A stretch of 25,907 nucleotides of DNA from a virus. Numbering within the stretch: position 1 is the first letter of the stretch; every line of letters begins with the position of its first letter. The stretch spans positions 1-25,907 of the IMG/VR virus record IMGVR_UViG_3300036770_001219, one strand, 5' to 3'. A program made the translations under genes and the position numbers. Below the pieces are notes generated by a model. The model ran no database searches. It saw only the letters and a program-made list of their open reading frames with translations, and was not told where the DNA came from. Shown here one piece after another: positions 8,237-25,907 of the stretch.

Positions 8237-10297
8237 TTAGAATGCCGGTGGACCGGACCTAATAATATAATTTAAAGTCAAATAAGGATTTATTACCGCA
8301 AAAGGTTGACCCAAAGATCCTGCTGTTCTGATTCCGCCAGAACTAGGAAGATACTGGCTCTGTCCGACCGTTGTAGGTCCTTTATCACTAAATGCTCCAG
8401 AATCCAACGGAGCGGCTGTGTCAATCCTTGTGGCAAAATATTGCTGCCCAGTTGACCCTCTCATGTTATGTTCGTGGTCTGGTAAATTTCCAACAGTTAA
8501 TGTATTTGAACTTTGACCTCCCGAGCCGCCTAGATTATCGGCTTCGGTTCCCGGAACCCTATCTGCATTTCCGCCGCCACCGTCAACGAAACCCCCTGTT
8601 GAATTAGGAACTTGTATACCATTGTCCATATTATCTTTACCTAATGGAAATCTTCCTCTTAGGTCTGGTAATCTGAATGTATTAACTCCTAAAGTACTTG
8701 CGCCGTATCTCGTACCAATCACGTCATATAAATCTTGATACTTGACTCTTTCTACTTCGCTACCATCACACAGCAAATACCCTTCGGGTGCATTAGATCC
8801 TGCGTAAGGAAGTATGGCTCCTATCGGAACTCCGAGGTCGGCAATAAAAGTATCTCTTTCGGATTTTAATAAACCCGTACCTGATCTAAATATTAAAATT
8901 TCATCATCTTTTATTGAAGTATTTGCTCTAGGTTTACTAGCAATAAGATTCGATGTTAGAGATGTAGTGAAAGTTTTTGTTAAACCTCCTACAGATCCGT
9001 CAAATGTAAAACTAGGCGACGACACATCGCCTGTCATAGCAAAAGTGGTTGTAAATCTTAAATTTGTGGCCGTTGTAGCGTTACCTGCAATGTCGCCTGT
9101 TAGGGTAGCTTGAATGCTATCTGCAATAACTGTTTTAGCTCTAACTGTGTTCCATCTTTTAATTACTGTTCCGCAATCGTATAGATCTGTTACTTTTGGT
9201 TGTATAGATACAAAGGAAGCAGTTCCCGAAACATCTAATGTATCTCCTACTAATAAATTTTTTCCTATAGCGACTCCGCCAGAAGTAACTATCGTTCCAT
9301 TGTTTAAATTAGTAGAAACATTGGAATTGGTAATTAACAAGGATCCGTCAATTAAAATATTTCCAGATACTTCCAACGATTCATCCGGATCTGGTACATT
9401 TATACCTACTTTGTTGTCGATTACTCTTAAAATAGTCGCTGGTATTCCGCCTCGATTGATCTGCAGATCTAAGCTACTACCTTCTGCAGAATTATAAATT
9501 TTTGAAGCCGTTGGACTAGAACTTAAACTAAAACTTCCGTCACTACCTATGGTTATTCCTGCATTATTTCTAACATTAAATCCAGCCTCGACTGTGTTAA
9601 TAACATCAGATCTTAAGAATCTACCGGCAGGAATTTCGGTTCCTGAAATGTTTAAAGCATCGGCGCTGGTTGCCTTAGAATATAATTTTGTTTCAAGAAG
9701 TGCATCGTCAATAATATTTTCAGTGATGTTCAACCCGGTTCTTATCGTAGTAAATCCCTGGATAGCTATCTTAGGTGTGAAACTGTCTTTACTAATAATA
9801 AAAACTGGTATATCCTCTACATAAAAACTTAAAATAATTCTAGCTAAACCGTCTGAGTCGTCTATCCTCTCTACCAACGGGCCGCTTCTTAAACCTGTAC
9901 TAAAGTTAGGACCTACTAGAATCCATCTAGAACCAGAAAACACATATAATTGTTGATTAGTAGTATCTACCCATAATTCACCAATTTTTGATTGTTCAAC
10001 AGCAGGCTCAACTGCACTCTTTTGAATATTACTAGCTGCCTTCCATTGAACGTTATCCCATACCATCAAAATACCGTTAACATTATCATACCACAATTGC
10101 CCTTCTGTGGGATTAATGGGCGGTTCGCTTTTTGCGAAATTTTCTAATAATGCTAAAAAGTTTTCAGCAATAATTTGGCCGTAACCTGTTATATTTCGTC
10201 CTGGAAATGTTAAACTGGTATCGGTGCTAGAAGTATTATCAAATACTGTAATAGGTACTTTATTTTGTCTATCAGTAAAATTTACAATATATGGCAT
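8237..10297 (-). CDS. Fibre-like virion protein, paralogue 1, 686 aa, with gp12-type collar domain
   Basis: Residues 1-200 are a diverged copy of the shared fibre N-domain: PGRNITGYGQ, AENFLALLENFAKSEPP, G-Q-L-W-Y-D-N and G-E-L-W-V-D-T units, and SKDSFTPKIAIQGF. A long beta-rich shaft follows, with VSGNILIDGSLLI-type steps. From about 490 comes a phage tail collar domain, the fold of T4 short tail fibre gp12: VPIGAILPYAG, G-Y-L-L-C-D-G, Y-x-D-L-Y-x-x-I-G-x-x-Y-G, then F-R-L-P-D-L-R-G-R-F-P-L-G near 541-555. A later Gly-rich region has N-L-P-D-H-E-H near 603-609, matching the metal-binding H-x-H of gp12 tips. It is the best candidate here for a short tail fibre that anchors the phage to the cell. 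GAGG precedes the ATG by seven bases, and the gap to the gene before is two bases. T4 gene 12 itself differs in the rest of its length, so I give no symbol. Confidence 0.8.
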   Translation of the reverse strand: MPYIVNFTDRQNKVPITVFDNTSSTDTSLTFPGRNITGYGQIIAENFLALLENFAKSEPPINPTEGQLWYDNVNGILMVWDNVQWKAASNIQKSAVEPAVEQSKIGELWVDTTNQQLYVFSGSRWILVGPNFSTGLRSGPLVERIDDSDGLARIILSFYVEDIPVFIISKDSFTPKIAIQGFTTIRTGLNITENIIDDALLETKLYSKATSADALNISGTEIPAGRFLRSDVINTVEAGFNVRNNAGITIGSDGSFSLSSSPTASKIYNSAEGSSLDLQINRGGIPATILRVIDNKVGINVPDPDESLEVSGNILIDGSLLITNSNVSTNLNNGTIVTSGGVAIGKNLLVGDTLDVSGTASFVSIQPKVTDLYDCGTVIKRWNTVRAKTVIADSIQATLTGDIAGNATTATNLRFTTTFAMTGDVSSPSFTFDGSVGGLTKTFTTSLTSNLIASKPRANTSIKDDEILIFRSGTGLLKSERDTFIADLGVPIGAILPYAGSNAPEGYLLCDGSEVERVKYQDLYDVIGTRYGASTLGVNTFRLPDLRGRFPLGKDNMDNGIQVPNSTGGFVDGGGGNADRVPGTEADNLGGSGGQSSNTLTVGNLPDHEHNMRGSTGQQYFATRIDTAAPLDSGAFSDKGPTTVGQSQYLPSSGGIRTAGSLGQPFAVINPYLTLNYIIRSGPPAF

Positions 10298-10299
10298 CG

Positions 10300-10944
10300 T
10301 TAAACCTCATTAAATCCAGTTAGACTCTGTACTCTGATAGTATAATCTATCTGTAAAAGTCTGTTTAAAGATTTTTGAACAGGATGAAATACAACATGAG
10401 TTAATAATTTTCCTGTTCCGCTGGGATTAAACGATCTTAAACCCAATTCATCAAATACAAAATCTCCTGCAAGGTCTCGACTATTGTCAAACGCTTCTTG
10501 ACCATCGGGTTCGCCGTAATCCAATAGACATGTTATTAAAATATCACTGTAAGTAGCTCCACTAATATGTCTAATTTCCATCTTATTTCTTACAGGATCA
10601 GTATTAGAAATACTATTTTGATCTACTACTTTACTATAAGTTTGATTATAGAGACTGCTATTAACTCCTACAGTATTAGGTGTTAGATAAGTGATCAATC
10701 CTGTAGGGTCGACTGTGGTTCCTCCAGTTCCGAATACCATTTCGTATACGGTTCCTTGTCCTTGGTTAGATAGCGCATTAACCATAGCCACACTCATATT
10801 TTCATAATGAATCGCATTTCTCTTATCTATAAACACTTCTTTGGTCTCAGGATCAAATATCTTGATGTGACCTTCAAAATGAAACCCGCCGGTTTCGTTT
10901 GGTTTATGCTGAATTTCTTCGGATTTTGGCTTATTTTCGACCAT
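10300..10944 (-). CDS. Conserved marine T4-like virion structural protein, ~214 aa
   Basis: After a charged, probably disordered start (residues 1-18) comes a conserved core: GFHFEGHIKIFDPETKEVF, KRNAIHYENMS, MVFGTGGTTVDPTGLITYL, ITCLLDYGEP, FVFDELGLRSF and HVVFHPVQKSLNRLLQIDYT. I recognise this protein from T4-like marine phages, where it stands beside the giant tail protein and is called structural. No function is proven to my knowledge. I choose ATG 10944 because AGAG lies six bases before it and a late-promoter-like box sits 26 bases upstream, in line with the other two boxes. A GTG at 10989, overlapping the giant gene's end by 17 bases, has AAGGA before it and would add 15 residues. Its location between giant wedge-slot protein and fibres suggests a baseplate or fibre-joining part. 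Confidence 0.72.
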   Translation of the reverse strand: MVENKPKSEEIQHKPNETGGFHFEGHIKIFDPETKEVFIDKRNAIHYENMSVAMVNALSNQGQGTVYEMVFGTGGTTVDPTGLITYLTPNTVGVNSSLYNQTYSKVVDQNSISNTDPVRNKMEIRHISGATYSDILITCLLDYGEPDGQEAFDNSRDLAGDFVFDELGLRSFNPSGTGKLLTHVVFHPVQKSLNRLLQIDYTIRVQSLTGFNEV

Positions 10945-10969
10945 ATCTATCTCTTTTGCTTTAGTAGTG

Positions 10970-10977
10970 TATTTATT
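10970..10977 (-). promoter_or_regulatory. T4-like late promoter candidate (AATAAATA)
   Basis: AATAAATA overlaps the last codons and stop of the giant gene, 26 bases before ATG 10944. It is the same 8-mer as at 1686-1693 and at nearly the same distance from a start. If used, it lets the structural gene and the fibre genes behind it be transcribed apart from the 14-kb giant gene. It also argues against the GTG 10989 start, since RNA begun here would lack that codon. Confidence 0.45.
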
Positions 10978-13900
10978 CGGGGAATTCACTAGACTTTTCC
11001 TTGATGAATTTTACAATTGGAGTTTGATTATCTAAAAACGTCACTCCTTTTGATGCTGAACTTTCTCCTTTTTCATACCACAATTTACCCGTTTTTCTTA
11101 TAATCGTTATCCTAGTTCCTGCAGGAGCAGATTTAGTTAATCGAATATACGGAGTAGCTCCATCTACGCTAAACTCGGCTTCTGTTTCTGAATCTGCAGA
11201 TGTGCTCGATGCTCCTTTAGATTCATCGTAAATTGAAATACTATCTTTTCTTAATCTAGTTCCACCAACAAATATTTCTATCTCATCACACGGACCATGA
11301 TTTTCAGGAATACTTATATATGAAAGTTCGGATCCGTTGATTTCGGTCATTCTATAAAATGTTCTATTGGATTTTCTAGGAATAAAATTTAATGGTCCTA
11401 TCAAAAGACTACTGCCGTCACTTACAAAATCATCTCTTTCTTGTTCTTCGGTATAAGGAATATTTTCCCTAAAACTAGAATCAACAACTAAGCTACCGGA
11501 CGAATGAATTTCAGCTATTCCGGTTCCTAAGGCACCTCGTCGAAGTTGGCTTAATATATTACCGTTTTTAGATAGATATTCGATTCTTTCGTTATTAACA
11601 ATAATTATTCCAGGAATATTTTTAGAAATAATCGGTTCGAAAAGTTCAGTGCCGTCGGTTACTTCTAATTCTAAATCGTAATAATTTAAATCTCTTACAA
11701 GCGTTATTTTTTTGCTTGTAGCAAAACGCTTATAATGATATTTGTTTAACATATCTTTAAAAATTTCATATGTTATTGGGGCCTGTCTTATCGATGATCC
11801 AAACTGCACTATTTTAATCGTGTCATCTAGATTAGATATACCTTTTAATTTAACCGCATTTCTCGGCAAAGACACTTCGTAATCTTCATCTTTAGTTAAA
11901 CGAACACCATTTTTATAAACCCAAACATAACTCGAACTCAACGGAGTCCTTGATAATTTATAAACAATTTGTCCGCCTTTATATTCGTCTGTGATCATAT
12001 CCATGCTAGGATATTCGCTGAACCAAACCACTTCTATTATATCACCTTCATTTAATGAAACTTCAGGCAAAATCACTAGATTATTATTTTCAAAATTAAA
12101 TTGAGTTCTTAAATCAACTTCGATCTTAATTTCATCTCCTATGTTCAAAACACTCGGAGAAATCGTGATTAAGTTTTGATTACCGTCATATACATAATCT
12201 ATAACAAATCTTAATAGATTATTATTAATGAAAACTTTTATATTTCCGCTAGTGATATTTCCGATCGCTTCCTCCGGATCAACACCTATTAATATAACGT
12301 TGTTGGTTCCATCGTAGGTTTCATAGATTGTATCTACACCATTTAACTGTGTGCCGTTTACTGAAACTAAAGTGCTTGATTTGGCGGAACCTCTTTGTAA
12401 ATTTACAAAAGAATCTAAGTCAAAAGATCTTGTACTACCATCAAATACAAATGTCTGATTGTTAACTCTTACGATACTGAGTCCCGACGAATCGACGTCA
12501 GAGGAGCTTCCTAAAGAAACAATTTTAATTTTTTGATTCAATGTTGGCTTGATGCCGAATTGAACTATCGTTAAATTTTGTTCATCTACTAGATCCGAAC
12601 TATTTAAAAATCCTGTATCGACAAATTCTCCATCGATTGTAACAAACACATTACTTGTTTGCTCATACCTAGCATTTGTTAAAAACAACGATGTATCACC
12701 GTCTGCTACAAATTCTTGATAGTCAAGAATTGTGATACCACCTATCCCGATTGAAATGATTTCAACGATAGATCCGCTAATAGGGGGATCATTAAATTCT
12801 ATAATGTTATCAACCAAGTTGATAGAATAGGTCGGTGACAATCCATCAAAAAATTGTTTGACTTTGTCAACATACACGATAATAGAATTAGATTCTATAA
12901 CTTCTAAACCTATGTTAAAAAATCTTGTAGAACCGTCTGCAATATATATTTTATTTTGTAGAGGTGCTGCGCCTGTGTTAGTTGTATTAAACACTTTAAT
13001 ACTAACACTATCTAATACTTGACCTGGAACATTTTCTTCAGGAGCAGGCACCTGATCGGGAGTTATAAATTTATCTCCGTCTATAACTATCTCTTCTGCA
13101 GCTATACCTGTAGCTGTAACGTATGCACCACCTAAAGATGCTAAAGATCCTCCGCTGATATTTGTATCTACTAGATTAAGATCTTGTATGACCACAGATC
13201 CGTCGCTTTCGATCGTTCTAAAAATTAAAGTATCCCCATCCTGAATATTAATATATGGAAAGCCTGTTACTGGATCATAAAATTCAACAGTATTAGTAGA
13301 TCCGTCTCCTATAAAGGTTGGCATAACTGCATATTCTGGAGCTGTTTTTCTTCCATTAGGCTGAATTGTAGATCCGTCATATAAATTGAAATACGGATCG
13401 TCTATTCGAATAATTCTCGAATCTCCCGGAACTTCATTTGTAAATTGTAAATTATCTATTTGTTTTTCAAACGTAGAATCTCTTGAAAGACCTAGATAGG
13501 GACTGATATAATTTCTCTTGTAATAAATTGTAATAAGTTGTCCTTGGGCGGGAGTAAATGGTAATTCAATTTTAAATGGTTCCCAAAATAGTTCCCAATC
13601 TTCTGTAAATGGAAGTACTATGCTACCGTCTTGCCGTTGCGTATCTCGTATAGCAACATATAATCTGTTGTCGACGCGAACTATGGATCCTGTTTTATAA
13701 ACCTGTGAAGAGTCTACAGTATTATCTGCGTTCACTACATAATAAAAATCGCTGTTTGATTCTACACTATCCCATCCTTCAGTAAACCAAGGCAATGCAT
13801 CCCATCCTCCTGTAACATCAAATGTTGTGCCTTGTACTTGAACTCCACCGAAATCTATTCCGGTCATAAGTTGTGAAATTTCTTTTCCGATCATTCCAGA

Positions 13901-16900
13901 AGAAGGTTCGTAGTATTTTTCAATTCTATTCACGCTGTCTAAAAGATCGTCGCTCTTTTCATAATCTATAGAGATAACATCTCCTTGATTAGGAGGTATA
14001 TTAAAAATTATTCTTCCTTTAAGAAGGCTATATGTATCTACTGAAGAAAAATATAAAGAAATATTATATTCGTTTGGTAGAACTAATTGATTATTTTTTA
14101 ATATATTAATTTTGCTTTTGTCTCGTGTCGGTGCATAATTTAAATCAAACACGGAGGTAGAACCAGTAGCAACAAATTGTTGAGATTGTCTGAAATTTCT
14201 ATAAATTCCTTCTTTAGAAATTCTATCAAATTTTACCGATAGGTTAAATGTTCTAACTTTACTATTTCCGAGAATAGGAACTGCTGTGGCTATGTCGGGA
14301 GAAGAACCATTACCGCCTACTAAGGAAATAGTAGGAGTAGATATATAACCTTTTCCTGATTCTATTACTCTGATAGCAGTAACTTTGCCATTCGAAATAT
14401 AGGCTTGAGCAATAGTTCCAGAGCCGGTGCCCTCTATCACCACTCTAGGGGGTTCAGTATAACCAGATCCACTATTAGCTACTCGAATTGATACAATACT
14501 ATAGTCATTATTATCATTCCACCATTTCCATGGATATTCTGACAATCTACTTGAATTCTGATCAATAGGTAAAACTTCTCCTACTGTAACAAAATACGAC
14601 GGTGGCAGATCAAAATCAGTCACTGCATTATCAGAATTATCCATATTATTGTATCTACTAGTATATTCTCTAATAGTAGTTCTATAAGGCTTGACTTCTT
14701 CTAGATATTGTTGATAGCTGACTAAATTGTCATTTTTATAACTGATTCTCTGATCTAAAAATCCTACATTATGTATCGCGCTTAAAAAGCTAGTTTTAAA
14801 TGCCCAGTCAATATATTCTTGTTCTGAAAAAGAATAATTAATACAAACAAAAAATAATTTATTCCACTCTATTCTTAAGTCTTCTACAAAAATATCTTCT
14901 TTGACTGCCTTAAAAATATTTCTTAGTTCGTTGGTCGGTTGAAGATCATAAAGTGCGGTATCAAACGCTCCTACATTATCGAAACCTATAGGTGTAGTTT
15001 TTGTGTTATATAAAGAATCCTTTAGTCGAATAGTTCCATTCTGTCTACCAACTAAATTATAATTTTCGGCTAAATCTCCTGTTCCTTCTGAGACTCTTTC
15101 TAATACTGCCCAGCCTCCGCTGCCGAATTCCTTTATTTTGATTAAATCTCCTTCGGACAAAACTAACGTCGGTTCTAAGTAGAAATCGGATATTTCTACA
15201 ATTATTCTAGATGTGGCAGAATAACCAGGTTTCCACCAATCAACAAATTCCCAATAGGAACGAGTATCAAACCCCTGAGATTTACTTCTATAGAATATAT
15301 TTCTTTGTTGATCCCACGAATATATACTCCAGAATCCGTTAGATGTTAAATCATTTCTAACTAAAACAGAAAATTGTCTTATTTTTACAATCGCGGTGCT
15401 ATATTTTCTTCCTCTAGTTAACACGGTAACCGAAGCTACTCTTCCTTGGCTATCAAGAGTAATAGATGCTCTAGCCCCTTTACCGTCACCTTCGATTTCT
15501 ATAAATGGAACTGTTCGATAGCCGAAACCAGAATCTATAATTTGTATAGATTCTAATTCACCGTCAACTAAAAATGGTTCTAAAACCGCTTGCCTTATTC
15601 TTGCAGTACCGATTTGTTCCAAATCAAGATTAGTATCTACCGCTACGTCATATTCATTTAATTGTTCTGCAGGTAACGGATCTGTTAGATTTAAATTTGT
15701 AAAATTAATAGTATCAGCAAAAGGTTTAGATTCTAATACAGAATTAATATTATCTATGACGATTTTTAAAATCTTCTCTCTATTAACAAACATTGTTTGT
15801 CGAGGTCTAAATGCTATTCCATATTTTTGTTTATCTGATAAGAAAATATCCGGTACTGCATTGCCTTGTTGATCGAATCCAACTAAACTATCTATCCATT
15901 TTCTTTCAAGTGCTTCGTTCGGTAAGCTGTCTGCCTGGCCTTCGGTTATCAATTGATATTCGGAATGTATCGAGTTCAATTCGACATCTTTTTTCTTATA
16001 TTGAATATTAATGTAAGATTCGTTGTTAGATAATAAAGAATCGAAATTATAAACAAGAAACTTATCTTTATCTATAAATGAAATTATTGGAAGATTCGAA
16101 CCTGCTGGATTTTCAATTAGTGAAGTTATTTCGGAAGCAGGAATCTTTCTTTTATTCGACTTCGGAAGAATAGTTTTTCCTTTTACCCAGAAATAATATA
16201 AAGTTTCTGATAAGTCTCCAGTTGATGTATTATAAATTTCTTTAATAGAATATACCGAATCGTCGGAATAAAGAGGAATTCCAGAAATTCCTGCAGAGAT
16301 TCCTTCGGTCGTATCTGCTATTAGAGCCCATTCAGAAGGTAGTAGTCTGCTTTCGACCCATTCGTAGATGTCAATTGAAGATCCTTCGGCTTGTCTATTC
16401 CAGTTTCCGACTCTGTATGATATTTCGCTCTGTTCATAATTAATCCACTTAGCTGTGCTTATATTCCACCATATCTCCCCTACGTGCTTTTCTTTCCACG
16501 ATTGAGAAGAATCTACAACTTGTTCATCAGTACCAACAGAATAAATTGCAGGATCATACATAGTTTTAAAGTTTATTTCTTGTTCGGCTATGCCTAACAA
16601 TTTTAATTTAAAATGGTCGACATAATCGATATCAGCTAATTTTTTATTATTAACTGTGTCAAAAACCGATACTGATCTAATTTTATTAATATCAACTAAT
16701 TCTTCTTCCGAAGATATTGTTTTCCAAGGATTGATATTACTGGGTTTTTTAAACAATCTTATTTTACCGGGTGTTGAAGTATAACTAACTGTTCCTCCAC
16801 CCGAGTTATCAGACCCGTCTACAGAGGCTGTAAAACTTGTACCTTCGTCGTTACTCGGTGATCCCAATAATGTAAAATCTGTTTGATTTCCTTCCGGACC

Positions 16901-19900
16901 GATAGATATAATTTTATATTCTCTACCTGCTGTAATATCAGTTGCTGATAAGGTTTCTGTTTGAGTATAATTAGGCGAACCTACTATAATTACAGAATTA
17001 GTTGCATCAACGCTGTATCCAAACGATTCAAAAGGTAATAAATCTGATTCAAGTTTTTCAGATAAAAGATAAGTTTGATCTTTTCGTTGAAAAACATAAA
17101 CTTGTCCGGGGTAACCCTGTGTAGTAGAAAAAACAGTAGTTCCTCTATCAAATGTAGTCCCTGTGTCAAACCTTGCGTAAATCTTATAAGAAGAGTTTTT
17201 TGCGCCCACTACTATTTTTTCTGTAGCGGCTGTAATTGAAACTGAGGATCCGAAGAATTCGTTTGAATTTCTTTCATAACTTTCTAATTTTTGTTTTAAT
17301 CTATATTCTAAATTAGAAAATCCGTTAGTTTCAAAAATATAAACTGCTCCTTGATTTACTAAATTAACATCGGCTTCGGGACTAGATGCAACTATTGTTG
17401 TTCCAGTAGAATCTATATCCAGAGCATAACCGAACTGATCTCCCGAGCTTATCATTTCTAACAATCCAGTATCGTTTATATCTTCTAAAGTATCAGTTGT
17501 TATTACTTGTTTTAAAGTGTATCTTTGATATTGATCTCTCTGATAGATATAAATTTTTCCTGTCGGAGTTCCGGTGCTATCGCCTACCGAAATCCACGGA
17601 TCTCCGGCAGTATCTTCGCCCTGACTTGAAAAAATAATACTCGAATCAATAACATCTTCTCTTGGATCGATTAATTTATAATACCCGCCGTTGTTTCGTA
17701 CAACATCGCCTTCGAAATACGTTATTTCAGATTTCCAGTCTCCTTTGAAATTTGCAAAATATTGCCCGTCGCTGTTAGGAGATCCAACAACTAAAATACT
17801 TCCATCTCTATTCATAGCTAGAGTCGAACCGAATTTATCTCCTGACTTTGTTAATGCAGAGATATCTTCCGGAGACAACAATCCAGATGTAAGTGTTGAT
17901 CCGTCATCATCTAAGAAAATATTTTTAGGTAAAGATGATTCTGTGCTGACTGGATCGACACGTGTCCAAGTGCCGGTAACATCGCCTTCTACACTTATTG
18001 TGCTACTATCACCTAACACATCGACCTGTGCCTGCCATAGCTTATTATCCCACCAAACAATTGTACCGGAAGGATAGAATGTTGACGAATTATACTTTCC
18101 AGCATAATTTGTATCAACCAAATGAGACCACTCTGTTCCATTATATGTATACAGATATACCCTGCCTCTATCATTGGCTGCGCCTGGGGCGGATACAGCC
18201 ATATAATAAAGATTACCAGATTTACTAATTTTTATTTCGTGCCCGAATAATTCTTCTAGATCAGGAACAGGACTTATAATTGTTTTGTCATGTAACCACT
18301 GTTGATCGATCCATTCGTAAATTTGAATGCATCCTTGCTGAAAATACCCGTTTCCTCTACCTATGGAATTTGCTTCTATTAAAGAACAAGGTTCCCATCG
18401 ATCAGAATAAACATCAATAGTACTTCCATCGCCGACAATATCTTCTGTGGCTTTCCACAATCTATTACCGTATCGAACTATTTCGCCTAGGAAATATTGT
18501 CCGGAAGGATCATAGTCTCCTCTAAAATTAGATTTAATCCCGCTAGCCCTTGGCGCTCCAACAATTAACCATTTTCCGTCGGGGCTTATAGCTAAACTTT
18601 CTCCGAATGAATTATTCATTAAATTAATAACAGAATCTTCTGGAGCGATTATATGTCTTAAATTTAATTTATCTAAAGATTCTTTGTAAGACATAACGAA
18701 ATTAGATCTCGGCATACTTGCAAAAATCTGAGATAGCATGTCTGCATATAAAACTCGATAACCTGTATTTTTCGGATCAGGTATGCCGTATTCTATCAAA
18801 GATTTATCTGTATACTGATTAGTTTTTTCAATAACTTCCCATCTGTTATTGGCGTCTTTTTCTATCCATAATTTAGAATTATTTTTTAGAAGGGCAGTTT
18901 GTTGTAAATTTAAATCCTGATATGAAGAAAATTTTGATTCAGTTAATTCATAAACAAAATTAAATGTGCTTTCATCAAATTCGGGATCCTGTGTACCAGA
19001 CGGAACTTCTACTACGACCGTTAATGATGTTTTAGAAATTATCTTAAAGAATCCTGTAAGATTTGGTATATCTTTCAAACCAATTATTTCGTTGACTTCA
19101 TACCTGTGTGGTCTATTAAAAGAAATGGTTATTAAATTATCTTCTTTAATTACATTTTCTACAATTAATAATAAAGATTTATTAAATCTCAATACTGTCC
19201 AGTTATTAGAATTATCAAAGGTTATCCAAATATGATCATTTTCTAATAATTGATTTATATCGAAATTAATTAGATCATCTCGAGATTTTAAAACAAATTC
19301 AACCTGATCCAATCTTACAAATCCCGCCGATCTATTTAGATCATCGTAGTATTTTGTAGGATTAACATTAACTGTAAAAGGAGTAGGAATAATAGAGAAT
19401 TTTGTAGGATCTACTCTAAAATACTGATCGACTACAGCACCAGTCTGTTGAACATCAGTGACTATTAAAGGCTGAGGATTAATTTGTAATCTGTCTTTCG
19501 GAACGTTAAATTCTAATTCGGTTATTTGCCCTGTTCCGCCAAATTTCCCTGTTCTAAAAGCCCATTCTTCTTTTAAAACTATACTGTCATCATTTGTTTT
19601 GCTTGTTTTATCAAAAACTTTTATAATAGAATTAGCTGTACCTTTTTCTCTTATAAATCCCTGATATAGTTTAAACTGTATTACTTCATCTTCAGCAAGA
19701 CTTTGTAAATACTCCCGAGATTGATATCCGATAATATGTCTACCTAATTCTCGCTGGCTTTCTCCTATAGCATCTGCATCAAGATCATAATAGTCTTCAA
19801 ATTGATTGATTCGATAATCAAAATTAGTAACTAATTTTCTTTCTGGTGTTGTATCTAATTTACTCCAGTTATCGTCGATAAACGATTCCGAACCATCTTG

Positions 19901-22900
19901 ATTTATTTTGCTTACCCAGTTATAACTCTTATAAGAAACAATATCGCCCAACTTGTAATCAACAAAGGGCTGCCATATTTGTATATCAACATTGTCAAAA
20001 ATAAATCCAGGACTTGTATAATCACCATCCCAGTCAGTGGTTCTGAACCCTCTACTTTTGATTCTTTCTTGACGATAACCTGTAGTTTTATCGTAGATAA
20101 CGTCGTTGAAAACTGTCCTATCATCAAAAACTGTTACGTGTTCTTTCAACACTAAAAACATTTTTAAAAAGTAAATGCCTTCGTTGGTGTTAGTTGTAGA
20201 AATTTGGAATGATTGAAAATCTCTTAGCACGTCAAGAAATTCAATAGACAGCGGAGTTCCGTCTGATTTGTAAATGTTGTATTCGTAAAAACTATCTAAT
20301 AAATTATCAACCACGCCAACAGGAATTGAAACTTTTATTTTTTCTGCCGACGGGCTCAGAGACAATAAAGCACCTATTTCCCAACTCTGCTTTGTCCAAA
20401 ACATGAATTCTTTAGCAGCGGTAAACCAATCTCTTGCAACCCCGGCCTGTGTGTCATATCCGTCAAACACAAATCCTTGACCAATTAAAAATTGTTCGTA
20501 CCCTAGTAAAAAATCTACTACTGATTGTATTGAGGTTAATACTGTTCCGTACACTAATTGTCTAACCTGCAACCTATTAAAATTTCTACGTTTAAAAGCT
20601 TCAACGCCTCCAACTGTCGGCAGTTTAGAAAGTTTTTGCCAATTAGATGTTTGAAATTCAGTGCCGCTTGTATGGCTTCTTATGCTTCTGTAAAAGACAT
20701 TATTAAATCTTACAACTACTCCATTTCCATAAAATTTATCAGAGGTCCAATCAAAAAATGTTTCGCTGACGCCACCGACTGCCACAAGAGGATCAGTTTG
20801 GCTCGGCACAGCTTCATAGTAATTGAAGAAAGAATCTAATTGATCGTAACCATTTATTTTCCATCCTCTATCAGTCTTTTCTAAAACCACACCACTGTAA
20901 GTAAGGCTCATTGTTGGGCTACTTACATTAAAGATGATGTTATAATTCTCTGGGGGGACAAAAATACTTCCTGAAGTAGAACTTGGATTCTTACTATCTA
21001 AAATATATTTTTGATTTTTTTGATCGACAAATCCTGATAATCTTGTTGTTATTGCAACGTTTATATTTTTTAATTTAGTTTCTAAAACTGTTTTATCTAA
21101 TCCTTTACTCTTTAAGTAATCCATTACATAGATAATCAAACCAGAAGTTAAATTTTGTCCAGTACTTGGGATCGTGATATCATCGATCGTAGAAAAGTAC
21201 GATGAATTTTTGCTAACTGTTTGGCCTAATTTATTAATTGTTGTAACGAAATTATCTAAATTATCTGTAATATATTCGAAAGGTTTAAGTAAACATAGTG
21301 CAATTATTACAGAGTACGGAAACTCAGAACTAGATCTCCAGGCATATTCAACCGGAGCGATATCACCTGGTTTAAAATCTCCTTTATTATTAATTAGAGT
21401 AAAGTTATTGGCCAGACTTGAATCTAAAGGACTTAATAATTTTCCGTCACCATCAACAGGTAAATGGTCTAATAAGGTGGGTCTTTTATATCTATCGTAT
21501 GTTCCGGCTTTTTCACCTTGTCTAATAATTCCGTCTCTCAGATCTTCCCAAAGTAATAAATTTCCCGAAGTGTAAGGGGCTGGACCGTATTGTGTTTCCC
21601 ACCATGTTGGTTGTTCACTAAATCCTAGCATTTCCCATGGACAGCGATGTGGTCGATCTGTGTCATAAAACCATTGATAGACTCCTCTCCAAAATCCAGG
21701 AAGAGCAACCGTGCCGTCCTGGTCTGTCATATTTGAGTATGTATAAGTGAAACTATTTTCGCTATCAAAATATTGATTGGTTATAAAATCAATATTTGTA
21801 TCCGCCAACCATCTTAAAAATTCCCTATTTAAAATAGGATCAACTTGATTTTTGTTATAGAAACCAGTATTGTAATATCCGCCTAGCGTCTTATCTATAT
21901 CAAACACTGTCGAATCATATTCTTTTTTAATGTTGTTGTAAATTCTATTTTCTAATTCTAATAATACGTCATCTCTAAAATCTCCAAACGATATCGTTAT
22001 ACTTCCATCGTGTCCTTGGATGACTGTTTTAGGTTCGACATATGTGTCATCTATAAATTTTTGTGGCAAATATTTTTTATACAATCCTAATTTAGTAGGT
22101 GTAGGAGGAATATGATTATTTGCCGTTGATACATATTCTCTAATTTGTATTAGATCTCCTTCGTTTAAATTTCTAAGGATTCGAACAAATCCAAAATTAG
22201 AATCAAACGAATAATCTTTATTAGCAATTAATTGTAAATCATTAATATAAACATAGACAGCACGTCGGCTAGGTGTGGTTAAATCAAATTTTTCAGATAA
22301 CGCAAAGGTGTTGATACCCGTGTCTTCGACTTCATAATCAATTTTTGTGTATGCTCCCGAACCTGCCATATCGGAATCAGAAAAAGGATTTGAAGATTTT
22401 TTCGATTTACTTAATTCATTTAAAATCTCATCTACAAGATCCGAAATATTTTGATTAAAAAATAACTTTGTAGCTAAATCAATAAAATTGTTTTTAAAAT
22501 CGCTATATTGTTTTTTAGCGTACTGTAAAGATTTTATTACATTAATTTCTTTATCACAAAGCAGTAATACCGCCAACGGCGATACTCCGGAATGTTTTAC
22601 TATTCTTGATGCTAGAGACTGAAAACCATTTATATCTCTTACATTACTATCGCCCGGTATGTTTCCTGAAAAATTTTCAAAAAATTCTAATCCAGAAATA
22701 AGATGATCGGATGCTGTTCCGTAGGTAAAACTTTCAAGATTTTGATTGAGAGGATTTTTTTCTAATCCTATTGGAATTTCATAAAAGCCTCTATCCGGTG
22801 GGACCGAACAAAATATTTTTATATAAACTACATCATTTTTGTTTAGAGGGTTTACAAATGTAAATTTGTTATTATTTCTAGAATATTCTTTGAAATATTT

Positions 22901-25138
22901 TTTTCCGTTTACATAAATGTCTATTCTAGTATCTTGTTCGGCATCAAACTTTGTCCAGTCAACACTATTAAATTCAACTGTTTGAGTGTCTTCTTGAACA
23001 ACTAAGCTATCTATTATAGGTTGTAGATACCTAGATTCATTTTTAATCCAACAATTGCCATATTCTAGCGTAGCGACATTTTTATAAAATCCAGATCGGA
23101 TGGTTTTAGAAAATACATTTGTGTTTACTTGATAATTAAATTCATCTATTTCCCAATCAAATTCGTATTGAATATCGCCCACATTATCAATGTTTAAGTA
23201 ACTAAGAGAAAAACCTAATTCTCTATCGATTGATCCATTGCCTTGTTTGTAACTTACTATCTCAGTTCCTCTGAAAGTTGATACTGGATATTTAGAAACG
23301 TCTGCATAGCTTATTTCGTCTTCGTCAAAAACTTCAAATAATGGAGGTTGATTAACGGATGATTTAATTTGACTTTTAACCCACGATGATCCATCATAAT
23401 GATACATCAAGCGTTGATTATTTTTTCCTCTTTTAACTAAAACGCATTCGCCTAATAAAGAATCGCTGTCAGACATAGCTCTTAGACTTATCTGGCGATT
23501 TCCATTATGGTTAATAAAATTAACTTCATAGATTCTATTATTAGCTAAAGAGTCTGTATCGGCAATTACCAATAATCTCGCGCCCTGAAAAAGAGCTTCA
23601 CCGTCTACAATATATCCCTGACTTCCTTCGATTTTTGAAAAAACATCTGTAGTAAAATCATCTATGTAATCAACGGCGATTTTCGATTTTTCTCCGTGAT
23701 TATATAATTTGATATTCGGAGAAAATTCTATAATGGGACGCTTGGCTCTGCTTTCCTCATTTGAGTCGAAATCAGATCCAGATAATCTATGTGCATATTC
23801 TAATACAGATTTATGAAACCATCTATTATAACGAGACCAAGGATTTGAATCTTGGCTAACTCTATTAATCAATATATAATCTTTTTTTCCAGGATAATAT
23901 GTAGCATCATCATAAGGTTCGGAGTCAAATCCACCATTGTCGAATAACACTTCGGGTATTTCTTCATTAAGTCCGGAAGAAATAACTAAATCATCAAACT
24001 TAACTAAATTAATTCCAGTTCCTACACCCTCTACGATCCATGTTTCGTCAGTTTCAAATTTTTTAGGTACTACCGTGCCTGAGAACTTTACGGCCATGCC
24101 GTTTGATAAAGTTATATTATTAGCACTTGTGTATTGTAATTTTCCTAAGATATCTTTTTCAATATCTAAAAAAGTATTTGTATCAACATTACCTATAATA
24201 AATCTGCCTAATCTATTAGGTGAGGTATCACTTTGGTAATAAAGAACATCAGGAGCATCTAAAGGAACTGTAAATGTTAATGTGCCATTTTCGATTCCGT
24301 TATTTGTTACCCCTTTCGAATAATCCAACGATGAAGCGGTGCTTGCAGGTTCTACATATTCCCAATCTTGTGATTCTTCGTCGATAGAACTTCCGTCGCC
24401 CTGCGGAATATTATTTTTAGCTCTCCAGAGTTTATCTCCAAATAAAACTAGAGCGCCCTTGGGATAAGATAAATCTGGATTATATCTTAAACTTCCCGTA
24501 TCATAGGATGTTTTAATTGTAAAACCCTCTCCCGGAGCATTAACTATAAACTTATAAGTCTGTCCTCTATACAATGTTAATGTAGGGTTATTGGTAAGGC
24601 CATCTGGAAAAAAGATATAAGAATCTGTCAAACCTAGTTTTACTCGATAAGTGCTATTCACTTCTTGAGACTGGCCCTTGATCGTTATCGGTGGCGGACC
24701 TTCGGGTACCCAATAATATTCTCTGAAGTTAACAAATTTGTCCCAGTCGATAGGAGGATTCCAGGAATAATGTTGCTGTGATGTAATTAGATTATCTTGC
24801 TCGTCTGTATTTCCAAAGAATCTCAATTGATTTTTAAAGTCAATGTAATCATAAAAGTTTGTAATTTTGTCATTATCTTTTACAATCACTCCAGGGTCGA
24901 GTTGATACCGACTTCTTAAAGTGTCGTCGGAATCTAGATAAACGTCCGATCCTTTATATGTTTTTCCGTAGCGTTTTCCTACATATCCTACGTTTTTTTG
25001 TAATACACCGGGTTGAACAAGAGGATCTAATACTCCTCCTAAAAACTTTTCGTTTGAATTAGTTTTAAAAATCTGAGGTAAGAGATCTACAGTTTTTCTT
25101 ACCGGTACTTGACTATCTGGAAAAATTTTATCTGCCAT
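10973..25138 (-). CDS. Giant modular tail/baseplate virion protein, 4721 aa, in the T4 gene 7 position
   Basis: One open frame of 14.2 kb begins MADKIFPDSQVPVRKTVDLL, with GYVGKRYGKTYKGSDVYLD near residues 51-69 and SWNPPIDWDKFVNFREYYWV near 125-144. I remember this start from giant virion proteins of T4-like marine phages. It follows gp6 by five bases, where T4 has gene 7 (1032 aa), so a baseplate-wedge-linked role is likely but homology to gp7 is not shown. Order by residue: cupredoxin-like domain (175-318), aromatic-rich core (1140-1225), FG-GAP blades (2178-2797), G-x-G-Y repeats (from 3207 and 3560) and DGST-type repeats (3940-4450), with seven CBM5/12-like modules spread through it. There is no signal peptide, membrane segment or protease motif. 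The ATG has no Shine-Dalgarno match, so translation may depend on gp6. Cys residues are rare. Confidence 0.85.
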   Translation of the reverse strand: MADKIFPDSQVPVRKTVDLLPQIFKTNSNEKFLGGVLDPLVQPGVLQKNVGYVGKRYGKTYKGSDVYLDSDDTLRSRYQLDPGVIVKDNDKITNFYDYIDFKNQLRFFGNTDEQDNLITSQQHYSWNPPIDWDKFVNFREYYWVPEGPPPITIKGQSQEVNSTYRVKLGLTDSYIFFPDGLTNNPTLTLYRGQTYKFIVNAPGEGFTIKTSYDTGSLRYNPDLSYPKGALVLFGDKLWRAKNNIPQGDGSSIDEESQDWEYVEPASTASSLDYSKGVTNNGIENGTLTFTVPLDAPDVLYYQSDTSPNRLGRFIIGNVDTNTFLDIEKDILGKLQYTSANNITLSNGMAVKFSGTVVPKKFETDETWIVEGVGTGINLVKFDDLVISSGLNEEIPEVLFDNGGFDSEPYDDATYYPGKKDYILINRVSQDSNPWSRYNRWFHKSVLEYAHRLSGSDFDSNEESRAKRPIIEFSPNIKLYNHGEKSKIAVDYIDDFTTDVFSKIEGSQGYIVDGEALFQGARLLVIADTDSLANNRIYEVNFINHNGNRQISLRAMSDSDSLLGECVLVKRGKNNQRLMYHYDGSSWVKSQIKSSVNQPPLFEVFDEDEISYADVSKYPVSTFRGTEIVSYKQGNGSIDRELGFSLSYLNIDNVGDIQYEFDWEIDEFNYQVNTNVFSKTIRSGFYKNVATLEYGNCWIKNESRYLQPIIDSLVVQEDTQTVEFNSVDWTKFDAEQDTRIDIYVNGKKYFKEYSRNNNKFTFVNPLNKNDVVYIKIFCSVPPDRGFYEIPIGLEKNPLNQNLESFTYGTASDHLISGLEFFENFSGNIPGDSNVRDINGFQSLASRIVKHSGVSPLAVLLLCDKEINVIKSLQYAKKQYSDFKNNFIDLATKLFFNQNISDLVDEILNELSKSKKSSNPFSDSDMAGSGAYTKIDYEVEDTGINTFALSEKFDLTTPSRRAVYVYINDLQLIANKDYSFDSNFGFVRILRNLNEGDLIQIREYVSTANNHIPPTPTKLGLYKKYLPQKFIDDTYVEPKTVIQGHDGSITISFGDFRDDVLLELENRIYNNIKKEYDSTVFDIDKTLGGYYNTGFYNKNQVDPILNREFLRWLADTNIDFITNQYFDSENSFTYTYSNMTDQDGTVALPGFWRGVYQWFYDTDRPHRCPWEMLGFSEQPTWWETQYGPAPYTSGNLLLWEDLRDGIIRQGEKAGTYDRYKRPTLLDHLPVDGDGKLLSPLDSSLANNFTLINNKGDFKPGDIAPVEYAWRSSSEFPYSVIIALCLLKPFEYITDNLDNFVTTINKLGQTVSKNSSYFSTIDDITIPSTGQNLTSGLIIYVMDYLKSKGLDKTVLETKLKNINVAITTRLSGFVDQKNQKYILDSKNPSSTSGSIFVPPENYNIIFNVSSPTMSLTYSGVVLEKTDRGWKINGYDQLDSFFNYYEAVPSQTDPLVAVGGVSETFFDWTSDKFYGNGVVVRFNNVFYRSIRSHTSGTEFQTSNWQKLSKLPTVGGVEAFKRRNFNRLQVRQLVYGTVLTSIQSVVDFLLGYEQFLIGQGFVFDGYDTQAGVARDWFTAAKEFMFWTKQSWEIGALLSLSPSAEKIKVSIPVGVVDNLLDSFYEYNIYKSDGTPLSIEFLDVLRDFQSFQISTTNTNEGIYFLKMFLVLKEHVTVFDDRTVFNDVIYDKTTGYRQERIKSRGFRTTDWDGDYTSPGFIFDNVDIQIWQPFVDYKLGDIVSYKSYNWVSKINQDGSESFIDDNWSKLDTTPERKLVTNFDYRINQFEDYYDLDADAIGESQRELGRHIIGYQSREYLQSLAEDEVIQFKLYQGFIREKGTANSIIKVFDKTSKTNDDSIVLKEEWAFRTGKFGGTGQITELEFNVPKDRLQINPQPLIVTDVQQTGAVVDQYFRVDPTKFSIIPTPFTVNVNPTKYYDDLNRSAGFVRLDQVEFVLKSRDDLINFDINQLLENDHIWITFDNSNNWTVLRFNKSLLLIVENVIKEDNLITISFNRPHRYEVNEIIGLKDIPNLTGFFKIISKTSLTVVVEVPSGTQDPEFDESTFNFVYELTESKFSSYQDLNLQQTALLKNNSKLWIEKDANNRWEVIEKTNQYTDKSLIEYGIPDPKNTGYRVLYADMLSQIFASMPRSNFVMSYKESLDKLNLRHIIAPEDSVINLMNNSFGESLAISPDGKWLIVGAPRASGIKSNFRGDYDPSGQYFLGEIVRYGNRLWKATEDIVGDGSTIDVYSDRWEPCSLIEANSIGRGNGYFQQGCIQIYEWIDQQWLHDKTIISPVPDLEELFGHEIKISKSGNLYYMAVSAPGAANDRGRVYLYTYNGTEWSHLVDTNYAGKYNSSTFYPSGTIVWWDNKLWQAQVDVLGDSSTISVEGDVTGTWTRVDPVSTESSLPKNIFLDDDGSTLTSGLLSPEDISALTKSGDKFGSTLAMNRDGSILVVGSPNSDGQYFANFKGDWKSEITYFEGDVVRNNGGYYKLIDPREDVIDSSIIFSSQGEDTAGDPWISVGDSTGTPTGKIYIYQRDQYQRYTLKQVITTDTLEDINDTGLLEMISSGDQFGYALDIDSTGTTIVASSPEADVNLVNQGAVYIFETNGFSNLEYRLKQKLESYERNSNEFFGSSVSITAATEKIVVGAKNSSYKIYARFDTGTTFDRGTTVFSTTQGYPGQVYVFQRKDQTYLLSEKLESDLLPFESFGYSVDATNSVIIVGSPNYTQTETLSATDITAGREYKIISIGPEGNQTDFTLLGSPSNDEGTSFTASVDGSDNSGGGTVSYTSTPGKIRLFKKPSNINPWKTISSEEELVDINKIRSVSVFDTVNNKKLADIDYVDHFKLKLLGIAEQEINFKTMYDPAIYSVGTDEQVVDSSQSWKEKHVGEIWWNISTAKWINYEQSEISYRVGNWNRQAEGSSIDIYEWVESRLLPSEWALIADTTEGISAGISGIPLYSDDSVYSIKEIYNTSTGDLSETLYYFWVKGKTILPKSNKRKIPASEITSLIENPAGSNLPIISFIDKDKFLVYNFDSLLSNNESYINIQYKKKDVELNSIHSEYQLITEGQADSLPNEALERKWIDSLVGFDQQGNAVPDIFLSDKQKYGIAFRPRQTMFVNREKILKIVIDNINSVLESKPFADTINFTNLNLTDPLPAEQLNEYDVAVDTNLDLEQIGTARIRQAVLEPFLVDGELESIQIIDSGFGYRTVPFIEIEGDGKGARASITLDSQGRVASVTVLTRGRKYSTAIVKIRQFSVLVRNDLTSNGFWSIYSWDQQRNIFYRSKSQGFDTRSYWEFVDWWKPGYSATSRIIVEISDFYLEPTLVLSEGDLIKIKEFGSGGWAVLERVSEGTGDLAENYNLVGRQNGTIRLKDSLYNTKTTPIGFDNVGAFDTALYDLQPTNELRNIFKAVKEDIFVEDLRIEWNKLFFVCINYSFSEQEYIDWAFKTSFLSAIHNVGFLDQRISYKNDNLVSYQQYLEEVKPYRTTIREYTSRYNNMDNSDNAVTDFDLPPSYFVTVGEVLPIDQNSSRLSEYPWKWWNDNNDYSIVSIRVANSGSGYTEPPRVVIEGTGSGTIAQAYISNGKVTAIRVIESGKGYISTPTISLVGGNGSSPDIATAVPILGNSKVRTFNLSVKFDRISKEGIYRNFRQSQQFVATGSTSVFDLNYAPTRDKSKINILKNNQLVLPNEYNISLYFSSVDTYSLLKGRIIFNIPPNQGDVISIDYEKSDDLLDSVNRIEKYYEPSSGMIGKEISQLMTGIDFGGVQVQGTTFDVTGGWDALPWFTEGWDSVESNSDFYYVVNADNTVDSSQVYKTGSIVRVDNRLYVAIRDTQRQDGSIVLPFTEDWELFWEPFKIELPFTPAQGQLITIYYKRNYISPYLGLSRDSTFEKQIDNLQFTNEVPGDSRIIRIDDPYFNLYDGSTIQPNGRKTAPEYAVMPTFIGDGSTNTVEFYDPVTGFPYINIQDGDTLIFRTIESDGSVVIQDLNLVDTNISGGSLASLGGAYVTATGIAAEEIVIDGDKFITPDQVPAPEENVPGQVLDSVSIKVFNTTNTGAAPLQNKIYIADGSTRFFNIGLEVIESNSIIVYVDKVKQFFDGLSPTYSINLVDNIIEFNDPPISGSIVEIISIGIGGITILDYQEFVADGDTSLFLTNARYEQTSNVFVTIDGEFVDTGFLNSSDLVDEQNLTIVQFGIKPTLNQKIKIVSLGSSSDVDSSGLSIVRVNNQTFVFDGSTRSFDLDSFVNLQRGSAKSSTLVSVNGTQLNGVDTIYETYDGTNNVILIGVDPEEAIGNITSGNIKVFINNNLLRFVIDYVYDGNQNLITISPSVLNIGDEIKIEVDLRTQFNFENNNLVILPEVSLNEGDIIEVVWFSEYPSMDMITDEYKGGQIVYKLSRTPLSSSYVWVYKNGVRLTKDEDYEVSLPRNAVKLKGISNLDDTIKIVQFGSSIRQAPITYEIFKDMLNKYHYKRFATSKKITLVRDLNYYDLELEVTDGTELFEPIISKNIPGIIIVNNERIEYLSKNGNILSQLRRGALGTGIAEIHSSGSLVVDSSFRENIPYTEEQERDDFVSDGSSLLIGPLNFIPRKSNRTFYRMTEINGSELSYISIPENHGPCDEIEIFVGGTRLRKDSISIYDESKGASSTSADSETEAEFSVDGATPYIRLTKSAPAGTRITIIRKTGKLWYEKGESSASKGVTFLDNQTPIVKFIKEKSSEFPE
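11789..13321 (-). repeat. C-terminal DGST-type beta repeats of the giant protein (residues ~3940-4450)
   Basis: Units start with D-G-[SD]-T followed by a hydrophobic strand, then I-x-V-x-[IV]-[DN]-x-x-x, a Y-x-[IV] step and an I-x-I-x-x-x-G end. Clear D-G starts lie at residues 3945, 4068, 4146 and 4233, a spacing of 78 to 123. A last unit without DGST (SSYVWVYKNGVRLTKDEDYE, ~4395-4445) follows. A looser copy, ATGSTSVFDL, stands at about 3656. These look like tandem immunoglobulin-like or beta-sandwich units common in phage appendages. I assign no family name. Confidence 0.6.
13583..13711 (-). other. CBM5/12-like module 7 in the giant protein (residues 3810-3852)
   Basis: The pattern Y-K-T-G-S-I-V-R-V-D-N-R-L-Y-V-A followed by Q-D-G-S-I and closing E-D-W-E-L-F-W fits the short Y-x-x-G-x-x-V...Y-x-A...W layout of family 5/12 carbohydrate-binding modules. 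It lies between the G-x-G-Y and DGST repeat regions. Confidence 0.45.
14279..14494 (-). repeat. Double G-x-G-Y repeat of the giant protein (residues 3549-3620)
   Basis: The unit I-R-V-x-x-S-G-x-G-Y-x-x-x-P-x-[VI]-x-[IL]-x-G occurs twice, with the Tyr at residues 3560 and 3598, 38 residues apart. The two are joined by the strand AQAYISNGKVTAIRV. This is a recurrent phage structural repeat. A third copy lies near residue 3207. Confidence 0.6.
15404..15550 (-). repeat. Single G-x-G-Y repeat of the giant protein (residues 3197-3245)
   Basis: The stretch IQIIDSGFGYRTVPFIEIEG followed by GARASITLDSQGRVASVTV is one full copy of the unit seen twice at 3549-3620. The expected second half copy is decayed (TRGRKYSTAIVKI). 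It is about 350 residues from the double copy. Confidence 0.55.
16775..16958 (-). other. Small Gly/Thr-rich module inserted in propeller blade 6 (residues ~2728-2788)
   Basis: The stretch has a G-R-E-Y-K-I-I-S-I-G step, then D-F-T-L-L-G, an N-D-E-G-T-S-F-T-A step and a G-G-G-T-V end. From memory it resembles a short module (GxxYxI...TDFTxxGA...GTxFTA) repeated in many marine phage proteins. It lies between VGSPN of blade 6 and the closing strand KIRLFKK, so it appears to be a loop insert. Confidence 0.5.
17585..17749 (-). other. CBM5/12-like module 6, inserted in blade 3 (residues 2464-2518)
   Basis: F-K-G-D-W-K, then Y-F-E-G-D-V-V-R and G-G-Y-Y-K-L, ending D-P-W-I-S-V, follows directly after the VGSP strand of blade 3 and precedes its closing strand GKIYIY. 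The Gly-Asp after the aromatic (F-E-G-D-V-V) is the best match to the family's Y-x-x-G-D-x-V core. The middle is longer than in the other copies. Confidence 0.45.
17960..18106 (-). other. CBM5/12-like module 5, between blades 2 and 3 (residues 2345-2393)
   Basis: Y-A-G-K-Y-N-S, then Y-P-S-G-T-I-V-W-W-D-N-K-L-W-Q-A-Q, then D-S-S-T-I and T-G-T-W-T-R-V. It follows the closing strand GRVYLY of blade 2, so it sits between blades rather than in the GAP loop. Aromatic residues are dense, as expected for a sugar-stacking face. Confidence 0.5.
18389..18526 (-). other. CBM5/12-like module 4, inserted in blade 1 (residues 2205-2250)
   Basis: F-R-G-D-Y-D-P, then Y-F-L-G-E-I-V-R-Y-G-N-R-L-W-K-A, then G-D-G-S-T-I-D and D-R-W-E-P. 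It begins just after the VGAP strand of blade 1 and ends before its closing strand GCIQIYEW. It is nearly the same size and pattern as modules 1 and 5. Confidence 0.5.
19859..19981 (-). other. CBM5/12-like module 3 in the giant protein (residues 1720-1760)
   Basis: Q-I-W-Q-P-F-V-D-Y-K-L-G-D-I-V-S-Y-K-S-Y-N-W-V-S, then D-G-S-E-S-F and D-D-N-W-S-K-L. This copy is the closest to the published family layout (W...Y-x-x-G-D-x-V...Y...W). It lies outside the propeller, about 420 residues before it. Confidence 0.55.
20615..20749 (-). other. CBM5/12-like module 2 in the giant protein (residues 1464-1508)
   Basis: D-W-T-S-D-K-F-Y-G-N-G-V-V-V-R-F-N-N-V-F-Y-R-S, then S-G-T-E-F and S-N-W-Q-K-L. The tryptophan start, Y-x-x-G-x-x-V core and closing W agree with the other copies. 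Confidence 0.5.
21464..21721 (-). other. Conserved aromatic-rich core of the giant protein (residues ~1140-1225)
   Basis: Dense Trp, Tyr and Pro motifs occur in a row: L-P-G-F-W-R-G-V-Y, F-Y-D-T-D-R-P-H, P-W-E-M-L-G-F (Pro at 1167), W-W-E-T-Q-Y-G-P-A-P-Y and L-W-E-D-L. I recognise this as a signature of the giant protein in related phages. It is not part of any visible repeat and may be the structural heart that binds the baseplate; that role is inference. Confidence 0.45.
24185..24616 (-). other. Cupredoxin-like domain without copper ligands, split by an insert (residues ~175-318)
   Basis: The first half is N-P-T-L-T-L-Y-R-G-Q-T-Y-K-F with N-A-P-G-E-G-F-T-I-K-T. The second half is G-V-T-N-N-G then G-T-L-T-F-T-V-P-L-D-A-P-D-V-L-Y-Y. 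This is the beta-sandwich pattern of plastocyanin-like modules in marine phage proteins. Copper-binding relatives end in Y-Y-x-C-x-x-H; here the Cys and His places hold Ser, Asp and Thr, so metal binding should be lost. A CBM5/12-like module lies between the halves. Confidence 0.55.
24338..24475 (-). other. CBM5/12-like module 1, inserted in the cupredoxin-like domain (residues 222-267)
   Basis: Y-P-K-G-A-L-V-L-F-G-D-K-L-W-R-A-K, then Q-G-D-G-S-S-I-D and Q-D-W-E-Y-V-E-P. It begins after the FTIKT strand and ends before G-V-T-N-N-G. Its pattern is closest to module 4 (both have D-G-S-x-I-D before the final W). Confidence 0.5.
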
Positions 25139-25143
25139 AATTT

Positions 25144-25907
25144 TTAAGTGCTAGAAATAATAGTATTAGAACGTGCTCTAATTTCGGCTGCATTAATACT
25201 CGTTACGATTTCTATATCGTCAACTGTTGCTCCGCTGATAAAAATCTCATCGGATCTACTTTTAATCTCAAACAAACTTCCGAATGTTTGGCTTTCTTGC
25301 TGAGGTACTATAACTATATTGCTTATATCCGGTGCTGTAGAATTTGTAACATAAGTTATTAACTCGGCCAGGTAAAAAGTGTCTCCAAAATCCCAATTGT
25401 TAACATCAAAAAATTCATTGATTGCCGAAATGATTCTAACTTTTAAGTCATTGTCATTAATATTTTTGTTAGGATTTTTTACAACTTTGAACGTAGCCCG
25501 TAACTTTTCAGTGGCTGTTTGCCCAAACAGTACTTTGTAAACGACTGGGTGATATATGATCTCATCACTGATTGATTTTATTAAATCTAACTTAGAACCA
25601 AAAGCTATTCTTAAATTATCGCTGTTAGGTGCTTCTGGTTCTACAGTAGTAATACCTGCTAGATAATTTCTAAATTCATTATCATAGGATCTAGTTAAAA
25701 GATAAACATCTATGATGTTACTAGAACTAGGATCAATTCGTCTATCAACGCTGGCATTATGTATATAATGAAATTTTAAATTGTTTCTACCAACATTAGC
25801 TCTATATGTGCTTTCTAAAATAAAAGTATTTGTATTTTTATCAACTCTCTTAACTCTGTTCTCATCGATGTCATAAAAATAGACTAATCTACCATCTGTA
25901 AACTCAG
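25144..25907 (-). CDS. Baseplate wedge protein, gp6-like, C-terminal 253 residues (partial)
   Basis: The frame is open from the right edge to a TAA at 25146-25144. It contains I-I-Y-H-P-V-V-Y-K-V-L-F-G, then V-R-I-I-S-A-I-N-E-F-F-D-V-N-N-W-D-F-G-D-T-F-Y-L-A-E-L, then P-D-I-S-N-I-V-I-V-P and F-I-S-G-A-T-V-D-D-I, ending SNTIISST. This FF..NWDFGDTFY...EL and ISGATVDDI series is what I know from gp6 of T4-like marine phages. T4 gp6 (660 aa) forms the inner ring of the baseplate by dimerising through its C-terminal half, the part seen here. It ends five bases before the giant gene, with which it is probably co-translated. Identification is strong; the start lies outside the window. Confidence 0.85.
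   Translation of the reverse strand, partial: EFTDGRLVYFYDIDENRVKRVDKNTNTFILESTYRANVGRNNLKFHYIHNASVDRRIDPSSSNIIDVYLLTRSYDNEFRNYLAGITTVEPEAPNSDNLRIAFGSKLDLIKSISDEIIYHPVVYKVLFGQTATEKLRATFKVVKNPNKNINDNDLKVRIISAINEFFDVNNWDFGDTFYLAELITYVTNSTAPDISNIVIVPQQESQTFGSLFEIKSRSDEIFISGATVDDIEIVTSINAAEIRARSNTIISST

Follow-up and report, generated by a model that had tools for sequence, protein, structure and literature searches.

Small beta modules, three of them CBM5/12-like, occupy loops of a seven-bladed propeller in a giant putative baseplate protein of an uncultured phage

Introduction

FG-GAP propellers, CBM5/12 folds and phage-tail propellers with inserted domains are already known, the last of these from single proteins. 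The integrin alpha propeller combines FG-GAP repeats with DxDxDG calcium loops and carries a single inserted alpha-I domain. The chitin site of CBM5 is marked by an aromatic motif of the AKWWTQG type, and the N-terminal part of tailspike TSP4 has a role in spike assembly.

Among tail structures, that of phage SU10 contains a seven-bladed propeller whose blade 1 bears a fibre-dock loop and which has domains inserted between its second and third blades (PMC9509320). Cis13 is a tail-fibre-like trimer bound to the baseplate by its N-terminal domains (PMC8894136). The receptor-binding protein of phi11 and gp131 of PhiKZ place propellers at the baseplate periphery, and the phi11 propeller platform is the likely GlcNAc site (PMC4901313).

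The locus described here departs from each of these systems in a different way. The SU10 nozzle protein (T7 gp12-like), which was compared by its published description only, belongs to a short-tailed phage, has Ig-like inserts and stands in another protein context. The phi11 platform is five-bladed, and for neither phi11 nor PhiKZ gp131 does the accessible part of the source describe loop-inserted modules of the present kind (PMC4901313). Within our propeller, the inserts share the Y..GD.V.Y.G.LW pattern of CBM5/12 modules and differ from them in occupying propeller loops instead of following one another in series.

Results

A giant protein in the gp6 neighbourhood

The window, that is the whole 25.9 kb stretch analysed here, comes from an uncultured virus record whose phage is probably jumbo. 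Its ORF at 10973–25138 (minus strand) encodes a giant baseplate protein of 4,721 aa, which the PHROG 10938 profile matches at 1,037 bits (E = 0) with a match spanning the conserved core; named members of that family are also matched by the giant protein in both blastp and tblastn. One conserved core block (20879–22021, minus strand; aa 1040–1420) served as bait for relatives, and a second follows the propeller (14594–16726, minus strand; aa 2805–3515). The gene adjoins that of a gp6-type baseplate wedge protein (phrog_10646; 25144–25905, minus strand, partial at the window end), which is the next gene upstream, and from this place beside gp6 we call the giant the gp7-position protein of a T4-like contractile baseplate. 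Homology to T4 gp7 itself was not detectable, hhalign giving a probability of 0.1% with either core block; T4 gp8 homology was looked for and not found, and profile searches of the PDB returned no solved baseplate homologue of the core blocks.

The core blocks, the size class and the gp6 adjacency are as in the PHROG 10938 giants of PA5oct, RaK2, GAP32, Atu_ph07, Phosso, SCTP-2 and a Vibrio phage. Seven cultivated-phage homologues measure 3,326–4,555 aa, and in five of the seven the gene immediately ahead carries a baseplate wedge annotation. The PA5oct homologue adjoins gp6 and, per its record, was found in virions by mass spectrometry. For the window protein we infer incorporation in the virion, in several copies per baseplate, and a docking role. 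At the propeller site the giants diverge: all seven PHROG 10938 giants compared lack a recognisable FG-GAP propeller there, the site being taken up by a short linker or by different domains. GSGYT-type repeats occupy the site in Atu_ph07 and Phosso, and in Salicola phage SCTP-2 (L010; giant aa about 1840–2390) the sequence, judged by eye, seems to contain a LamG/concanavalin-like domain there. Repeats of the GSGYT type also occur in the window giant, at aa 3190–3257 and 3544–3609, where they match PHROG profiles for a baseplate wedge subunit and for head closure Hc2.

Directly behind the giant, a 229-aa protein (10300–10989, minus strand) has a strong match to phrog_11259, a family of unknown function. 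Four consecutive tail-fibre-like proteins are also encoded downstream (2695–4464, 4508–6334, 6347–8227 and 8237–10297, all on the minus strand). Their first ~190 aa are common (about 31–48% pairwise identity) and the remainder differs, while the first two also have their last ~135 aa in common (51%). Judged from these sequences, the four look like several heads on a single baseplate anchor.

Seven blades and four inserts on one face

The propeller, with its inserts, occupies 16748–18754 (minus strand; aa 2129–2797) and was recognised by Pfam FG-GAP_2, AlphaFold and Foldseek. Within it, segment 17585–18526 (aa 2205–2518 of the ORF at 10973–25138, minus strand) scores 81 bits with FG-GAP_2 (cut-off 23) and 28.0 bits with CBM_5_12 (PF02839; cut-off 26.2), single inserts alone falling below the latter cut-off, and both families match in 39 of 39 aligned members (E <= 1). 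An AlphaFold2 model built from the alignment of 39 members (pLDDT 80.3, pTM 0.82) contains seven blades of four strands each. Foldseek places integrin alpha propellers at the top of the matches to this model (E 9e-13; for one alpha-5 structure, TM 0.59 of the target), and it also matches viral FG-GAP proteins. The seven four-stranded blades and the FG-GAP repeats are the same as in integrin alpha, the closest PDB fold, whereas the window propeller carries several small inserts and the calcium-binding DxDxDG is absent from its 1-2 loops, which read SPDGK, SKSGN, NRDGS and DSTGT.

FG motifs lie at aa 2178, 2298, 2436, 2569, 2629 and 2706, giving intervals of 120, 138, 133, 60 and 77 residues, in agreement with an earlier note that had put blade spacing at 60–77 residues when bare and 120–138 with an insert. 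That note had counted six blades; the model has seven, a degenerate first blade with four strands (18647–18754, minus strand; aa 2129–2164) preceding the one called blade 1 there and below. The surplus in each long interval is one CBM5/12-like module, as had been proposed, and AlphaFold strand order and mutual homology both bear this out. Insert 1 (18377–18532, minus strand; aa 2203–2254) lies in the GAP loop of blade 1, the 2-3 loop between strands B and C; insert 2 (17948–18112, minus strand; aa 2343–2397) lies in the 4-1 connection after strand D of blade 2; and insert 3 (17579–17755, minus strand; aa 2462–2520) lies in the GAP loop of blade 3, again the 2-3 loop between strands B and C. 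The three are mutually homologous, with hhalign probabilities of 99.5, 96.9 and 95.4%, and reach at most 5% against the blade motifs or the fourth module. The latter value supports the claim that the fourth module is unrelated to the other three. This insert 4 (16787–16939, minus strand; aa 2734–2784), of the pattern AGxxYxI..G, sits in the 2-3 loop (B/C) of blade 6, beyond the segment 17585–18526, and is modelled with low confidence.

Since the 2-3 and 4-1 turns of an up-and-down blade share a face, all four inserts are predicted to project from one face in this protein, and the strand order of the model thereby agrees with the same-side arrangement that the earlier note had suggested. The anatomy of propeller and inserts can be stated with high confidence. 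A contrary reading would take the inserts not as modules in their own right but as strands belonging to the blades of a propeller that is larger or irregular; in its favour the beta content of the inserts, and nothing else, could be cited. The predicted structure contradicts it, all seven blades being four-stranded in the model without the inserts. Moreover, the flanking strands are retained in insertless relatives, and by profile the inserts match one another and PF02839 but not the blades, so that this reading is highly improbable.

The same kind of module recurs elsewhere in the chain. CBM5/12-like copies lie outside the propeller at 24350–24484 (aa 219–263) and 13589–13714 (aa 3809–3850), and in the conserved core at 20627–20752 (aa 1463–1504) and 19850–19978 (aa 1721–1763), all on the minus strand. 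The core copies near aa 1463 and 1721 are seen again in most relatives, and the PA5oct and SCTP-2 giants also have one CBM5/12-like module in the core.

Module traffic among environmental relatives

Relatives were gathered via the conserved core block, which yielded 80 IMG/VR loci with 41–70% identity there. Searches by tblastn with the propeller only gave no matches among isolated phages and only two distant loci in IMG/VR; distant propellers were compared by strand-pair HMMs. Among the relatives the flanking core blocks stand 626 to 1,902 aa apart, and the number of CBM-like modules per propeller varies from 0 to 5 across about 70 environmental relatives.

Within the close relatives aligned, insert 1 is present in 39 of 39 and insert 3 in 38 of 39, with invariant positions in both. 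Insert 2 is missing from L031, L059 and L053, the last of which also lacks insert 3. Insert 4 is confined to the window protein, and L022 has a different segment at that site. Modules also occur in further places: an insert-4-type module is nested within insert 2 in L038, L042 and L047, extra modules occupy the 3-4 hairpin of blade 2 in L019, L022, L044 and L050, and an insert of ~400 aa fills the 1-2 loop of blade 2 in L054–L056. Among the more distant relatives, L062, L073, L076, L091 and L093 have propellers near minimal length without a CBM-like module, and L086 and L088 have other large modules in the propeller. On a core tree obtained by a quick method, the module number class changes at least 12 times, with at least 6 changes between none and some.

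A freshwater lineage (L006, L096–L104), modelled separately (pLDDT 77, pTM 0.81), has three large inserts, each placed between strands C and D in the 3-4 hairpins and consisting of modules that differ from those of the window. By this placement in the model, they would project from the face opposite to that of the window's inserts. For the inserts of this lineage there is a match, of low TM-score, to the N-terminal part of the CBA120 tailspike TSP4. Beta modules of similar look are inserted in the freshwater propellers, and CBM-like segments nested in the freshwater inserts were recognised by eye in L100 and L102.

Because the loops are empty in some relatives and filled in others, the inserts are separable loop modules, and their one-sidedness is a trait of this lineage rather than of the family. 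The proposal of loop-only insertion on one face accordingly stands for this protein and fails for the family, in which inserts of the 1-2 and 3-4 loops occur. With inserts 2 and/or 3 missing in close relatives and some propellers bare, the presence-absence pattern agrees with separable insertion at the same loops.

The breadth of this variation, in insert types, sizes, loops and faces, and the existence of bare propellers would also suit a neutral elaboration, in which the turns of a giant structural protein take up passing modules without specific function. The near-universal retention of inserts 1 and 3 among the close relatives, with their invariant positions, speaks for selection, and we regard largely neutral variation as unlikely.

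Sequence features bearing on sugar binding

The Pfam CBM_5_12 match is carried mostly by the opening ~25 residues of the family, and the conserved insert positions G2207, Y2215, V2221, W/Y2228 and W2248, with their equivalents, make up a general fold pattern. Among 44 aligned inserts, none has the aromatic chitin-site motif. The stretch in its place is mostly aromatic-free, with a GDGSS/T signature in inserts 1 and 2. Against the PDB, the solved structure that the inserts match best is Cis13 (All3316) of the Anabaena contractile injection system (1.8e-7), with chitinase and deacetylase domains ranking lower; further matches are to a phage tail spike and a putative tail fibre, both near the N-termini.

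Hypervariability of the kind seen at receptor tips is weakly borne out in 11 close pairs, the inserts diverging more than the blades in 9 of them, mostly to a modest degree. Between L022 (aa 2661–2740) and L058, whose core and blades are about 94% identical, insert 3 has its distal half replaced, with windows of 23–42% identity.

These observations bear directly on the possibility of a glycan-binding platform, in which inserts of CBM5/12 fold would bind host-surface or matrix polysaccharide and provide multivalent attachment beside the fibres. The Pfam match above cut-off, the PDB matches to chitinase and chitin-deacetylase domains, the three copies on one face, the replacement of the insert 3 tip between sister phages and the likely GlcNAc site of the phi11 platform are all compatible with such a function. 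Set against them are the loss of the CBM5 aromatic stretch, a best PDB match that is a baseplate-bound protein and not a chitin binder, the module copies in the conserved core and the mostly modest insert divergence. We consider this platform possible, though rather doubtful. At the level of sequence, sugar binding by the inserts is not supported, and the earlier view of them as binding units on a platform is weakened by the missing aromatic motif, the structural nature of Cis13 and the copies in the core.

Discussion

We favour a modular docking or contact hub over direct glycan binding, and rate this reading at about an even chance. In a contractile baseplate of T4 type, the giant would stand at the gp7 position, and its seven-bladed integrin-like propeller, set between two core blocks, would act as a rigid platform. 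Small beta modules spliced into the propeller turns would leave the blades undisturbed and would serve chiefly for contact with other proteins, as docks for tail fibres or spikes or for adjacent baseplate parts, and they may be gained, lost, nested or exchanged with changing fibre sets. The likenesses to Cis13, to the tail spike and fibre, to TSP4 and to SU10 point to docking or structural contacts. Also in favour of docking are the four fibre genes with a common N-terminus in the window and the module copies in the conserved core. The faster divergence of the inserts (9 of 11 pairs) and the replaced half of insert 3 (L022/L058), on the other hand, would also fit a receptor-facing surface and weigh against docking.

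Here one homologous propeller can be traced through about 70 phages, in forms that range from bare to bearing five CBM-like modules. No baseplate protein combining an FG-GAP propeller and CBM5/12 folds with module traffic across a whole family turned up in the literature searched, which covered few subscription papers, and this counts as weak evidence of novelty. A caution follows for annotation: a part of a phage baseplate that is labelled 'carbohydrate-binding module' may be structural. The propeller is also a possible scaffold for domain display.

For this uncultured jumbo phage family, we put forward tentatively that the propeller is a plug-in display scaffold. Each lineage would independently have filled chosen loops with binding modules of its own, which may lie on opposite faces and are nested in some cases; exchanging modules within one giant structural gene would thereby alter the attachment or the set of fibres. 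The family is a natural experiment on the acquisition of fibre docks or binding surfaces by large phage baseplates.
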